NCBI RefSeq assembly: GCF_003352915.1
Contig: NZ_CP022314.1
Coordinates: 238,993 to 302,992 of the forward strand
Origin: Arthrobacter sp. PM3
Lineage (GTDB): Bacteria; Actinomycetota; Actinomycetes; Actinomycetales; Micrococcaceae
Length of the DNA stretch: 64,000 nt
Direction of reading: 5' to 3'
Under the pieces are notes generated by a model that saw only the letters and a list, made by a program, of their open reading frames with translations, had not been told where the DNA came from and did not search any database. Both the position numbers and the translations under genes were made by a program. Of the stretch, positions 5,954 to 19,665 are shown piece after piece. How positions within the stretch are numbered: position 1 is the first letter of the stretch; every line of letters starts with the position of its first letter.

Positions 5954-6021
5954 GCAAGGTAACGCCGCGTCACATTCTTGGCAGCGTCTCCGGCCCTGCC
6001 CGGGACGCGGTCCGGGACGCG

Positions 6022-6102
6022 GTCCGGGGGCACTTTGACGGCCGCCGGAGCCGTTTTGGGCGCAAACGACGGCGTGTCCCCGGTCAATGTGCCCCCGTCC
6101 GG
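6022..6102. repeat. Palindromic intergenic repeat, family C, copy 1
   Basis: The left arm GTCCGGGGGCACTTTGACGG is matched by an inverted right arm reading CCGGTCAATGTGCCCCCGTC (6080-6099). The interior holds a second imperfect inverted repeat. The same GTCCGGGGGC-CTTTGA arm occurs in the two palindromes that bracket the AbiEi/DUF559 gene (17233-17334 and 18244-18334). Here it stands alone between the cysG promoter and the monooxygenase gene. Confidence 0.8.
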
Positions 6103-6135
6103 CAGCCGGGCACGCCGCGGGGGAGCACCCGGGGG

Positions 6136-16776: not shown

Positions 16777-17199
16777 ATGACTGACATGTTCCTCGAGAAA
16801 TTCCGTGCGCTGGTCCCGAAGTATCTCGAAGACGAATGGCAGGAAGAGGACGGGCTCACGGCGGACGAACTCGACGCCGCCCTGGCCGACCACCAGTTCC
16901 AGATCCCCTTGGTCCTGCGCGAGTTCTACCTGGCGCTCGGGGGCTGCGAGGACCTCATGGAGGCCTACCACTACTTCTGGGACCCCGAAGAGCTCGAAGT
17001 CGATGACGAAGGCTTCCTCATGTTCCTCGAGGACGAGGAAGAGCAGTTCACCTGGGGCTTCCGGATCGGCGACCTCGGTGTGCCGGACCCGATCGTGTAC
17101 CGCCGCAACAACGCCCGCGGCCAGTGGAAGAGCGAGGAAGGGACCTTCTCCGAGTTCGTCTTCGACATGTTCGAGTGGGCCTTCGAGGACGAGGACTAG
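16777..17199 (+). CDS. SUKH/SMI1-KNR4-like acidic protein
   Basis: A 140-residue, strongly acidic protein. The pattern IPLVLREFYLALGGCEDLMEAYHYFWDPEEL followed by FLMFLEDEEEQFTWGFRI resembles the SUKH (SMI1/KNR4) fold, whose members are often immunity proteins against secreted toxins or have housekeeping roles. No toxin gene lies beside it, so an immunity role is not supported here. It follows the TRIC gene by 20 bp and is convergent with the AbiEi/DUF559 gene. Family assignment is by pattern only. Confidence 0.65.
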   Translation: MTDMFLEKFRALVPKYLEDEWQEEDGLTADELDAALADHQFQIPLVLREFYLALGGCEDLMEAYHYFWDPEELEVDDEGFLMFLEDEEEQFTWGFRIGDLGVPDPIVYRRNNARGQWKSEEGTFSEFVFDMFEWAFEDED

Positions 17200-17232: not shown

Positions 17233-17334
17233 GTGACGCCTTGCCGCCGTCCGGGGGCACTTTGACACGGACACGCCGGGCTTTTCCCCTCAACCGGCGA
17301 TTCCAGCCTTCAAAGTAGCCCCGGAGCGCTTCAC
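17233..17334. repeat. Palindromic repeat, family C, copy 2 (3' flank of AbiEi/DUF559 gene)
   Basis: The left arm runs GTGACGCC then GTCCGGGGGCACTTTGACAC; the right arm ending at 17334 (TCAAAGTAGCCCCGGA then GCGCTTCAC) is its imperfect complement. It ends eight bases before the stop codon of the minus-strand gene 17343-18179. The matching copy 18244-18334 lies on the other side of that gene. Confidence 0.85.
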
Positions 17335-17342
17335 CGCACCGC

Positions 17343-18179
17343 TCAGGGGTGAAACGCACCCCGGCGCCACAGCTCCAGCACGGTTTTCACCTCGGCCACC
17401 ATGCGCTCGGGGTGGTGGACGACGTCGTCGTATCCGTACCTCAACACGAGGTACCCGCCCACCACGGACGCATTATTGCGGCGGCGGTCCTTCTTGACCT
17501 GCTGCGGTTCCAGATGGCTGCCGCCGTCGGTCTCCACGATGATGCAGTCCTCCACAAGGAAATCCACCTCCCCCACGGCGGGAATCTCCACGTGGCGGCG
17601 AACGGTCAGCCCGGCGCGGCGGAAAGCCATGTTCGCCAGGACCTCCAGGACCGAGTCGGCCCGCGGAATCACGAGATCCAGAACAGACCTCGCCCGCGCG
17701 TTCCGGTTCCCCACCAGCTTCCGGCGCAGGAAATCCAGGCTGATGTCGCCACGGCCGACGGCGCATTGCACCATCACGAGCGCCTGCCGGTCCGGCAGGC
17801 AGCGCACAGCGTGGATCAGCACATCCGCCAGTCCGGCGACCGGCAACCACGGATGCTTCGGGTAATGGCACGGGCCGTGCGGCACGACGCCGGCGGGATG
17901 AGCCCGGTGCCCGACGCACAGGTGCAGTTCCTGCGCCGGAGCCAGGGTCCACAGCCCGTAACTGGGTGCCGCGGACAGACACGTCAGCCGGCCGCGCAGT
18001 TCCCGGGCAGCCCGGAACGCCGTCGCGTCCTCCGGCAGTCCGTAGTGGCCGCGGCGGATCCTGGCGATGGCGCCCGCCCTCAGCGCGGCGTCGATGTCAC
18101 TTCGGCCGAATCCGGCCCGGATGATGCCGGCGGTAATGGCCGACCCGCCGTTCGCTGCAAGGAAAGCTTCGAGTCTCAT
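17343..18179 (-). CDS. AbiEi-like winged-helix protein with C-terminal DUF559 (Vsr-like) nuclease domain
   Basis: A 278-residue protein. The N-terminal ~60 residues look like the AbiEi-type winged helix (AITAGIIRAGFGRSDIDAALRAGAIARIRRGHYGL). Residues ~185-270 form a DUF559 domain of the Vsr/restriction-endonuclease fold, with GEVDFLVED (acidic D206), ETDGGSH (E216, D218, H222) and KKDRRRN (D231). AbiEi proteins are normally antitoxins to AbiEii nucleotidyltransferases; no AbiEii is present, so this is an orphan. Just before the ATG (18179), the minus strand reads GGGCACTTTG, the arm motif of the palindromes that flank the gene. A nuclease or repeat-binding role is inferred; the cellular function is unknown. 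Confidence 0.75.
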   Translation of the reverse strand: MRLEAFLAANGGSAITAGIIRAGFGRSDIDAALRAGAIARIRRGHYGLPEDATAFRAARELRGRLTCLSAAPSYGLWTLAPAQELHLCVGHRAHPAGVVPHGPCHYPKHPWLPVAGLADVLIHAVRCLPDRQALVMVQCAVGRGDISLDFLRRKLVGNRNARARSVLDLVIPRADSVLEVLANMAFRRAGLTVRRHVEIPAVGEVDFLVEDCIIVETDGGSHLEPQQVKKDRRRNNASVVGGYLVLRYGYDDVVHHPERMVAEVKTVLELWRRGAFHP

Positions 18180-18243
18180 GTTCCCAAAGTGCCCTGCGGC
18201 CGGCTGCCCCGGTGGACCCGGCTTGGTCCATGTGGACAACCCC

Positions 18244-18334
18244 GCGCCGTCCGGGGGCGCTTCGACACGGACACGCCGTCCCAGGGCCCGGTACCAGCCG
18301 ATCTGCCCCTCAAAGCCGCCCCGGACGGCGTCAC
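18244..18334. repeat. Palindromic repeat, family C, copy 3 (5' flank of AbiEi/DUF559 gene)
   Basis: Left arm GCGCCGTCCGGGGGCGCTTC, right arm CTCAAAGCCGCCCCGGACGG followed by CGTCAC; the arms are inverted complements of each other and share GTCCGGGGGC, CTTTGA and ACACGGACACGCCG with copy 2. It lies 64 bp upstream of the gene start at 18179. Together copies 2 and 3 bracket the gene. Confidence 0.85.
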
Positions 18335-18564
18335 GGGCCGCCTGCAAACGCGTGAAAAGTTCATTTACAAAAATGCTGGACAGCGTGACAAATCTGTCAT
18401 AGTCTCTTTCTTGGGTTCACCAAATGCCTCCGGTGGACCTGATGCGAACGGAGAAATGGCCCCGGTTCGGCACAACGGATGACTCGAACGTTGTGAGGAA
18501 CCGGGGCCATTCCGTTTAAGAATCCGCCCAGGCAGCGGCAGCCGTGCCGCGACTATTCAGCAGG
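18335..18564. other. Non-coding remainder of the 18180-18564 gap
   Basis: Between palindrome copy 3 and the polyprenyl synthetase stop there is a locally AT-richer stretch (about 18350-18420, including TTCATTTACAAAAATG and GACAAATCTGTCATAG) that looks promoter-like but precedes no open frame, followed by the nested hairpin 18455-18511. No gene is visible. Confidence 0.5.
18455..18511. terminator. Long nested hairpin downstream of polyprenyl synthetase
   Basis: The outer stem AATGGCCCCGGTTC (18455-18468) pairs with 18498-18511; an inner stem CACAACG (18471-18477) pairs with CGTTGTG (18489-18495), leaving an 11-base loop. It lies ~55 bp past the stop of the minus-strand synthetase gene (18565) and on that strand is followed by TTCTCC. 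A transcription terminator is most likely; a small structured RNA is the alternative. Confidence 0.6.
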
Positions 18565-19665
18565 CTAGGAGCTGCGGTCGACGACGGCGCGGGCGAAGCT
18601 GGTCAGCGACGCCTTCACGACGCCTTCGGGCAGCGGGGCCAGGGCGGCGATGGCGTCGTCGGCCCAGGCGCGGGCCACTACCCACGACTCCGCGGTGACG
18701 GGGTGTTCGCGGAGCCCGGCCACGGCCGCCGCGAGGGCCTCGTCCGAGCTGAGGTCGCCGTCGATCAGCTTCAGGAGGTCGACGGCGGACTGGTCGCCTT
18801 CGCGGGCGGCGCTGCGCAGCAGCAGCACTGGCAGCGTCGGGACGCCTTCGCGCAGGTCGGTTCCCGGGGACTTGCCGGACTTGACCTTGATGCCGGTGAC
18901 GTCAATGACGTCGTCGGCCAGCTGGAACGCGACGCCCACCTTCTCGCCGTACTCCACCAGGTGGGCCTCGTAGGCCTCGTCGGCGCCCGAGAAGATCGCA
19001 CCGAGCTGGCCGGAGGCCGCCACCAGCGAACCTGTCTTGTCCGCAATCACGGACAGGTAGTGCGCCAGCGGGTCTTCGTCGGGGCGGGGACCCACGGTCT
19101 CGTGCAGCTGGCCGAGGCAGAGCCGCTCAAAGGTCCGGGCCTGGATGCCCAGGGCACGGGAACCGAGCTCGGAGACCAGGATGGAGGCGCGGGCAAAGAT
19201 GAGGTCGCCGGTCAGGACGGCGACGGAGTTGCCCCAGACCTCGTGGGCCGTGGGAGCACCGCGACGGAACGGGGCCGAGTCCATGACGTCGTCGTGGTAC
19301 AGGGTGGCCAGGTGCGTCAGCTCAACGACGACGGCGGCCTGCACCACGGCGGGCAGCGAGGCATCGCCGAGGTGCGCGCACAGCAGGGTCAGGAGCGGGC
19401 GGATGCGCTTGCCGCCGGCTTCCACGAGGTGACGCGACGTCGCGTCGGCCAGCGGGTCCGAGTTGGCAATGGCTTCCCGCAGCTTCTTCTCGACCCGCGC
19501 CAGGTTGGTGGTGATGGCGGGGCCAAGCTCGGGGTCGCCCGCGATCGCCGCGAAGCCTGCCGGCAGCTGGAGTCCGGTGGCGATCGCCGTGGTGTTGAGG
19601 CTGGGTTCAGAGCCCGGCAGGCCGTGTCCGGCGTGCTCCCAGCTTTGGTCTGCAGAGTTGGTCAC
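18565..19665 (-). CDS. Polyprenyl diphosphate synthase (menaquinone side chain)
   Basis: A 366-residue trans-isoprenyl synthase. The first Asp-rich motif is YHDDVMD and the second LADDVID, with GGKRIRPLL for binding isopentenyl diphosphate. The first ~35 residues are a variable extension. It probably makes the long prenyl tail attached to menaquinone, judging from the neighbours menG, menF and the reductase. GTG start at 19665 overlaps the reductase stop (GTGA), with AGGG upstream. This gene order (methyltransferase, reductase, prenyl synthase) is also seen in mycobacteria. Confidence 0.93.
   Translation of the reverse strand: MTNSADQSWEHAGHGLPGSEPSLNTTAIATGLQLPAGFAAIAGDPELGPAITTNLARVEKKLREAIANSDPLADATSRHLVEAGGKRIRPLLTLLCAHLGDASLPAVVQAAVVVELTHLATLYHDDVMDSAPFRRGAPTAHEVWGNSVAVLTGDLIFARASILVSELGSRALGIQARTFERLCLGQLHETVGPRPDEDPLAHYLSVIADKTGSLVAASGQLGAIFSGADEAYEAHLVEYGEKVGVAFQLADDVIDVTGIKVKSGKSPGTDLREGVPTLPVLLLRSAAREGDQSAVDLLKLIDGDLSSDEALAAAVAGLREHPVTAESWVVARAWADDAIAALAPLPEGVVKASLTSFARAVVDRSS

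Follow-up and report, generated by a model that had tools for sequence, protein, structure and literature searches.

Introduction

What ties a nuclease gene to the pair of long palindromes between which it lies? The question is raised by a stretch of 64,000 nucleotides (nt) from Arthrobacter sp. PM3 (NCBI RefSeq assembly GCF_003352915.1, contig NZ_CP022314.1, positions 238,993 to 302,992), here called the window, in which an intact gene for an AbiEi-DUF559 protein stands between two palindromes of one type. Genes of this DUF559/AbiEi kind are common in actinobacteria and carry placeholder names only; the comparison of genomes described here gives them a partner, namely a palindrome matched to the protein. 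The unit of gene and palindromes recurs in many soil actinobacteria, which suggests a mobile or selfish element not described before.

In the systems of repetitive extragenic palindromes (REPs) and their REP-associated tyrosine transposases (RAYTs), the sequence of the palindrome is matched to the protein, and the gene is mostly fixed while its repeats disperse. An initial annotation of the window had proposed a unit of this general kind with a nuclease in place of the transposase, and that proposal is strongly supported: matched pairs are found at DUF559/AbiEi genes and not at other genes, and the palindrome type follows the protein clade, with exceptions. The literature consulted, largely titles and the opening lines of abstracts, contained no report linking AbiEi-DUF559 genes to palindromes.

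The gene and its palindromes in the window

The features at the centre of the analysis are as follows.

17343..18179, minus strand: nuclease gene, an intact coding sequence (CDS) of 278 amino acids (open reading frame (ORF) list, Pfam, AlphaFold2 model and fold matches)
17244..17331, plus strand: downstream flanking palindrome, type T1, just 3' of the gene (covariance model R1, 84.6 bits, E-value 4.8e-10; a copy used in building R1; DNA folding z -4.7)
18244..18331, plus strand: upstream flanking palindrome, type T1 (covariance model R1, 84.8 bits, E-value 4.6e-10; a copy used in building R1; DNA folding z -2.8)
6017..6105, minus strand: solo palindrome copy between genes that we take, from the look of their sequences, to be monooxygenase-like and cysG (model R1, 73.9 bits; DNA folding z -2.4)

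The gene described in the initial annotation is confirmed as an intact frame of 278 residues, and the palindrome pair around it is real, its first coordinates being correct to about 11 nt when the copies are placed by covariance model; the third copy is also there, on the other strand. The two flanking palindromes are imperfect, measure about 88 nt each and share one orientation, with 1000 nt from start to start. Their arm, GTCCGGGGGCACTTTGA, has nine matches in the window at up to three mismatches, against 0.41 expected and a maximum of two in shuffles, and six of the nine are arms of the window's three palindromes. The half-site GGGCACTTTG that had been noted before the start codon is present (18185-18194, coding strand), but it is not general among relatives: over 39 named loci with a four-arm score (defined below) of at least 30, the match to a locus's own arm within -40..+3 averages 7.10 of 12, compared with 6.98 in shuffles, and it reaches 9 or more at five of the 39, compared with 4.7% of shuffles. 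Among 12 loci inspected, those matching 9 or 10 are close relatives.

The possibility that the palindromes are RNA genes was rejected: at gathering scores, Rfam gave no match in the window. Just one of 11 predicted helix pairs shows a two-sided change, and such near-invariance is more in keeping with a DNA site bound by a protein than with an RNA whose fold is conserved.

The protein itself comprises an AbiEi-type winged helix (residues ~1-61), an AbiEi-like middle domain (~62-170) and a DUF559/Vsr-like EDxHD nuclease domain (~172-278), in the numbering of a query that starts one codon before the ATG, so that CDS numbers are lower by one. DUF559 lies above its Pfam cut-off; the AbiEi_4 winged helix, at 18.2 bits, lies under its cut-off of 25, and the AbiEi models of PADLOC match weakly. 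Over 32 members of the family, DUF559 was found in 29, AbiEi_4 in 28 (E-value up to 0.05) and MTES_1575 in 25, and no transposase family is among the five Pfam families listed for them. An AlphaFold2 model with a predicted local distance difference test (pLDDT) score of 89 gives fold matches to the Vsr/homing-endonuclease fold over residues 172-279, with borderline support for the AbiEi part. The EDxHD nuclease fold is present with its conserved E, D, H and D, the Vsr-like active site is apparently intact, and the protein probably acts as a dimer. The gene family has a match in 60 of 61 genomes of the genus (E-value up to 1e-20; G056 is the sole exception) and in 38 of 64 genera of the order (E-value up to 1e-15). 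A phage origin was rejected, as a phage set gave no match to the protein at E-values up to 1e-5; plasmids gave two distant ones.

Matched palindromes that change with the protein

If gene and palindromes belong together, related genes should have pairs of their own. For each of 24 further genomes of the genus, the flanks of its best gene were compared with those of the window's gene (25 loci), and more loci were then added. The resulting 65-locus table leaves out L074 (contig end) and L108, L113, L125, L126, L127, L128 and L134 (contig ends or fragments), and enters L068 and L071 as L136 and L135. Relatives carry other arms, among them GGGGCACTTTG, GCGTNACTTATG, TTCCCCACCTTTG, CCTGACCNNNTTTG, GTCACGCNNNGCAACTTT, GGCCCRGTTTT, CCCAGTTACT, TTCTGCTGGATCA, GCGCCATCA, GGACATGTCC and GCGCAGGGAC, and regular expressions found the same motif on both sides of the gene at 39 of 60 genus loci. 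In a tree of 58 proteins the clades largely coincide with the palindrome types, and the arm sequence tracks the protein clade over about ten types, matched on both sides; types TTCTGCTGGATCA and GCGCCATCA, which are nested inside the CCCAGTTACT clade, form an exception.

As the regular expressions had been written after the flanks were seen, pairing was also measured without motifs. Local alignment of the two flanks and a scan for 18-nt palindromes caught part of the pairs and were superseded by a four-arm score (maximum 36), for which the best upstream 12-mer and its reverse complement 15-90 nt further on must both occur again downstream. The sample consisted of 80 named loci, the best 80 of 120, mostly from Arthrobacter, Pseudarthrobacter and Paenarthrobacter, with one Psychromicrobium, one Renibacterium metagenome-assembled genome (MAG) and one unclassified Micrococcaceae MAG. 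A score of at least 31 was reached at 34 of the 80 loci, whereas none of 351 other ORFs from these loci and none of 240 dinucleotide shuffles scored so high. Lowering the threshold to 29 gives 50 of 80 loci, 15 of 351 ORFs and 1 of 240 shuffles. Twelve of the 80 genomes overlap with the first comparison, and among the other 68 the two thresholds were reached by 30 and 42, respectively. Combining the upstream flank of one locus with the downstream flank of another gave 31 or more in 26 of 300 mismatched pairs, which by eye join the same or sister types (T1 with T2, for example). In an order-wide sample (28 of 30 returned loci scored, 26 of them outside the genus), seven of the 26 reach 31, one in the same family and six in five other families, compared with 3 of 266 mismatched pairs.

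Five DUF559 genes of another class (class c) have no palindrome motifs but do have direct repeats downstream, and are thus not a clean negative control. At these loci (L129-L133; G000:C1:52401, in the window's own genome, and relatives) an open frame of ~340 amino acids is followed by repeats like GTGAGAGAGCGTC that vary by genome, possibly a second kind of gene-repeat pairing. The window's genome also holds a second AbiEi-DUF559 gene (L122, G000:C1:4306292-4307045), matched in two separate pieces and apparently broken, with several GGACATGTCC-like sites upstream; in its relatives from other genomes (L109, L112, L114, L115 and L118) both flanks carry many short sites of this sort. By eye, an inner motif, ACACGCCG/CGGCGTGT, recurs in T1, T2, T4 and T5 palindromes despite their differing outer arms, and may be where the nuclease cuts or where a shared host factor binds.

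Dispersed solo copies

Covariance model R1, built from ten palindrome copies, was searched over the 4.35-Mb genome of Arthrobacter sp. PM3, which is a single contig. The search gave 11 copies (weakest best-strand E-value 1.8e-6), ten of them self-found by construction of the model and the eleventh (1452946) new. Nine are solo copies; the surroundings of eight were read, and four lie clear of ORFs of at least 80 amino acids, taken as candidate genes, while four overlap one. Six of the 11 cluster in ~133 kb around the gene (G000:C1:179055-311646), including those at 6017, 17244 and 18244 of the window.

The expectation that copies of one palindrome would cluster at DUF559 genes stood in part. 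With two of the 11 copies at a DUF559 gene, and with this genome's other DUF559 matches having no T1 copy nearby, a tie between the T1 palindrome and DUF559 genes in general is ruled out; what recurs in relatives is matched pairs with clade-specific arms. The figure of two in 11 fits a palindrome proper to each gene clade, with solo copies dispersed.

Across the genus, solo copies were counted by hand from listings over 61 genomes, with the T1 model at E-values up to 1e-4. Each of six genomes with a T1 gene has between 4 and 19 T1 solos, against 39 in total in the 55 others (Mann-Whitney P 8e-6, kinship ignored). For T3, the 12 genomes that carry a T3 gene have 25 solos and the 49 others have 22 (P 5e-4, kinship ignored), after one presumed solo (G068:C3:4133639), which lies 29 nt from another DUF559 gene, had been dropped, changing the count from 26 to 25 and P from 4e-4. 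The T3 label of G054, G069 and G071 is based on T3-model matches beside the gene, and the T1 label of G058 mainly on protein likeness (weak pair, score 27). In G066 the T1-type gene (L296, C1:3643613-3644445) is matched in two frames and looks broken, and ten T1-model copies remain; this unit is perhaps on its way out.

Where the window has its solo copy, a T1 palindrome is present in G061 as well, and G045 has a 134-nt spacer without one; the two genomes are too distant for a target duplication to be read. A T3 copy lies ~0.6-0.7 kb upstream of the same cysG gene in G068, G049, G071 and G054, a spot similar to that in the window, not identical with it. Close pairs of copies, up to 3 kb apart, also bracket genes other than DUF559 genes: five such pairs occur in eight genomes rich in T1-model copies, against 0.51 expected, although the 3-kb limit and the eight genomes were chosen after the data had been seen and G016 was searched at E-values up to 1e-3, the others at 1e-4. 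All eight close pairs are in direct orientation, and three surround DUF559 genes. The bracketed genes include what we take to be a DUF427 gene and DNA-alkylation-repair genes, as well as unnamed ones. Direct pairs of T1 or T2 palindromes around genes other than DUF559 genes occur at L282, L283, L284, L285 and L268; at L283 and L284 the two members of the pair closely resemble each other, which would fit a recent duplication.

Replacement, loss and inversion at one conserved locus

The neighbours of the gene define the place at which these events can be followed.

16777..17199, plus strand: SMI1/KNR4-like neighbour gene, convergent (PF09346, 22.6 bits, below the cut-off of 25.4); marks the conserved insertion locus
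18565..19665, minus strand: polyprenyl (geranylgeranyl-type) synthase-like neighbour gene, presumably so from family resemblance (ORF; matched in 60 of 61 genus genomes); marks the conserved insertion locus
18455..18511, no strand: terminator-like inverted repeat after the synthase gene, with a counterpart within the inverted segment of L069

The gene lies between the synthase and KNR4-like genes, and both neighbours are in range at 67 of 84 loci (80 named and 4 unnamed). No AbiEii nucleotidyltransferase toxin stands beside the gene, as the initial annotation had said of the AbiEii toxin: these two are its neighbours in the window, as at the 67 loci, the other 17 not having been searched for AbiEii. 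Neither conserved neighbour looks like a methyltransferase, the search having extended to those two.

Of the 60 genomes in which the synthase was matched, 30 yielded synthase loci: 26 of these have a gene match (that of G009 broken), one has a remnant (G010) and three have none (G045, G013 and G018). By motif, the 26 occupied loci hold five T1, five T2, eight T3, four T4 and three T5 units and one without a type, several with a single recognisable side. The T4 proteins form a separate clade, which suggests replacement over divergence in place. By eye, a T3 palindrome in G015 adjoins half a T2 palindrome, which looks like the displacement of one unit by another; among the loci without the gene, G045 retains one degenerate T4-like palindrome and G013 half an arm, and G018 has a different ORF and no palindrome that could be seen. 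Of the 67 loci with both neighbours, 63 have the usual orientation and four (L181, L186, L207 and L069) are inverted, which may reflect one event. At L069, where both ends were read, the inverted stretch has a palindrome at either end and holds the terminator-like repeat and the box described below. Palindromes or their halves thus mark gene loss, inversion and type replacement, as they do other bracketed genes.

Fixed spacing and a DnaA-box-like element

Between the upstream palindrome and the gene lies a further short element.

18231..18239, minus strand: TTGTCCACA box, between the upstream palindrome and the start codon (read from the sequence)

We take TTGTCCACA to be the actinobacterial DnaA-box consensus, and hence a candidate site. 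TTRTCCACA occurs upstream of 48 of the 80 genes and of 0 of 431 control ORFs, and the looser YTNTCCACA upstream of 61 of 80 and 1 of 431; the TCCACA core is mostly located at -53 to -58, with the beginning of the tblastn match as the reference point. The palindromes are also regularly placed, and at the 34 high-scoring loci the upstream one generally occupies about -165 to -65 and the start of the downstream one is usually within ~40 nt of the stop codon, with a span between outer arm ends of 54-105 nt.

How the unit may work

We think it probable that the gene and its two palindromes form one unit, REP/RAYT-like in its working, with an unrelated AbiEi-DUF559 nuclease in place of a Y1 transposase. 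The anatomy of the unit, its pairing, its co-divergence with the protein, its dispersal and the palindromes or halves at sites of loss, inversion and replacement are directly visible in the genomes. The protein would recognise the palindrome of its own clade; co-divergence supports this indirectly, and such recognition most simply explains why the arms at the two ends match and vary with the protein. To judge from its active site, it would nick or cut there, and repair of the break may then copy, lose, invert, convert or replace palindromes, sometimes together with the DNA between two of them. Solo palindromes would be non-autonomous offspring or relics of the unit, and the position and sequence of the DnaA-box-like site, at a near-fixed place upstream, suggest that expression is probably tied to replication. 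A wider claim, possible but somewhat doubtful, is that a new class of selfish element is at hand: a replication-linked AbiEi-EDxHD nuclease with long clade-specific palindromes as recombination sites, at which units or caught genes would be excised, inverted, replaced or copied, rival specificities displacing each other at fixed actinobacterial loci.

Several points weigh against a REP/RAYT-like unit. Such an enzyme, by cutting the DNA around its own gene, would do harm if its activity were not conditional. Nor can the pair be recognised at every locus, with the regular expressions finding one side at 14 of 60 loci and neither at 7, and four-arm scores below 31 at 46 of the 80 named loci and below 29 at 30. 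T7-type loci show a single arm downstream, and L091 (G023:C1:1949979-1952773) has a T7-type palindrome (GGCCCRGTTTT) upstream and T6 arms (GTCACGC) downstream; its gene belongs to the second, T6-side clade, and the arrangement perhaps reflects a replacement that went only halfway, at another locus that genomes share. The association tests for solo copies take no account of phylogeny, and T3-like solos occur in 13 of 49 genomes without a T3 gene; G074, with 12 of the 39 T1 copies noted above, has a gene of T4 type, though a T1 gene may have been present earlier. Copy number is low beside that of REPs, with at most 21 per genome found, and species-level sampling yielded no fresh insertion with target duplication. 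Most units, moreover, sit at one conserved locus, so that mobility of the gene must be rare or ancient.

Among other explanations, autoregulation alone fares best, and we still regard it as unlikely. Here the palindromes would be an upstream operator and a downstream terminator or second operator, the nuclease would act elsewhere, solo copies would be other regulated sites and the operators would co-evolve with the protein. AbiEi proteins bind inverted repeats in their own promoter, and the upstream copy stops ~70 nt short of the gene; joint divergence of protein and site would fit, as would the T7-type downstream copy, which is just half a palindrome. In most types, however, the downstream copy is a full palindrome, direct-oriented pairs surround unrelated genes, and the inversion, the gene loss that left one palindrome and the type fossil are all located at palindromes.

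A solitary defence unit, whose replication-linked nuclease would cut foreign DNA and whose palindromes would be self marks, or recombination handles for the swapping of units at fixed loci, we consider more improbable again. Different types occupy one locus across genomes, as defence genes do, and AbiEi domains, matched weakly here by PADLOC, occur in defence systems; this account nevertheless leaves the dispersed solo palindromes unexplained, and by eye and by Pfam the two conserved neighbours are not defence-like. That independent palindromic repeats, similar to miniature inverted-repeat transposable elements (MITEs) or REPs and moved by another transposase, accumulated at DUF559 genes by chance is highly improbable and already disfavoured, for although solos occur in a genome whose resident gene is of another type (G074) and six of 11 own-genome copies lie within ~133 kb, arm sequence follows protein clade over about ten types, none of the 351 other ORFs reaches 31, and pair and box stand at near-fixed distances.

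Comparison with known systems

A REP/RAYT-like unit has implications for what can be read from these genes: a candidate DNA target is legible in each gene's flanks, and the clades provide many natural pairs of protein and site for the study of how nuclease specificity changes. Its closest parallels and differences lie with five known systems.

EDxHD homing endonucleases such as I-Bth0305I, which cut an empty target and copy themselves into it, share the nuclease fold and its conserved E, D, H and D. In the present protein AbiEi domains replace the phage DNA-binding modules, the gene is free-standing in bacterial chromosomes, and the unit is flanked by whole palindromes, not inserted in a split target. 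Compared with the Vsr (very-short-patch repair) endonuclease, which nicks the T:G mismatches that a partner methyltransferase leaves, AbiEi-DUF559 units have extra DNA-binding domains and the link to palindromes. With integron cassette systems, marked by an integron integrase and attC motifs, there is a general likeness alone, in imperfect palindromes and bracketed genes. The AbiE type IV toxin-antitoxin systems share the AbiEi antitoxin domain (the 28 of 32 members above), which is here fused to a nuclease, with repeats on both sides and dispersed.

Two accounts of REP/RAYT systems describe a gene with palindromes on its flanks, further copies of which are scattered over the genome (PMC3733652, PMC8266576). 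The likeness to REP/REPIN-RAYT systems (TnpA-REP, REPtron) is that one gene is flanked by its own palindromes, recognisably so at many loci though not all, and that cognate palindromes are also dispersed as solo copies. The differences lie in the enzyme, which in RAYTs is a Y1/HUH transposase and here, by Pfam and by fold, AbiEi with a DUF559/EDxHD nuclease; in the palindromes, which are 20-40 bp and high-copy in REPs and here 54-105 nt in few copies; and in the direct-oriented pairs and DnaA-box-like upstream element of AbiEi-DUF559 units. With the defining Y1 transposase absent, the unit is not a REP/RAYT member, and since it departs from both RAYT and AbiE on a point that defines each, we set it apart from the two. 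Working as it appears to, like a REPtron, it could nonetheless be counted as a REPtron variant, and if this is true, the REP/RAYT mode of life has had more than one origin, in unrelated enzymes.
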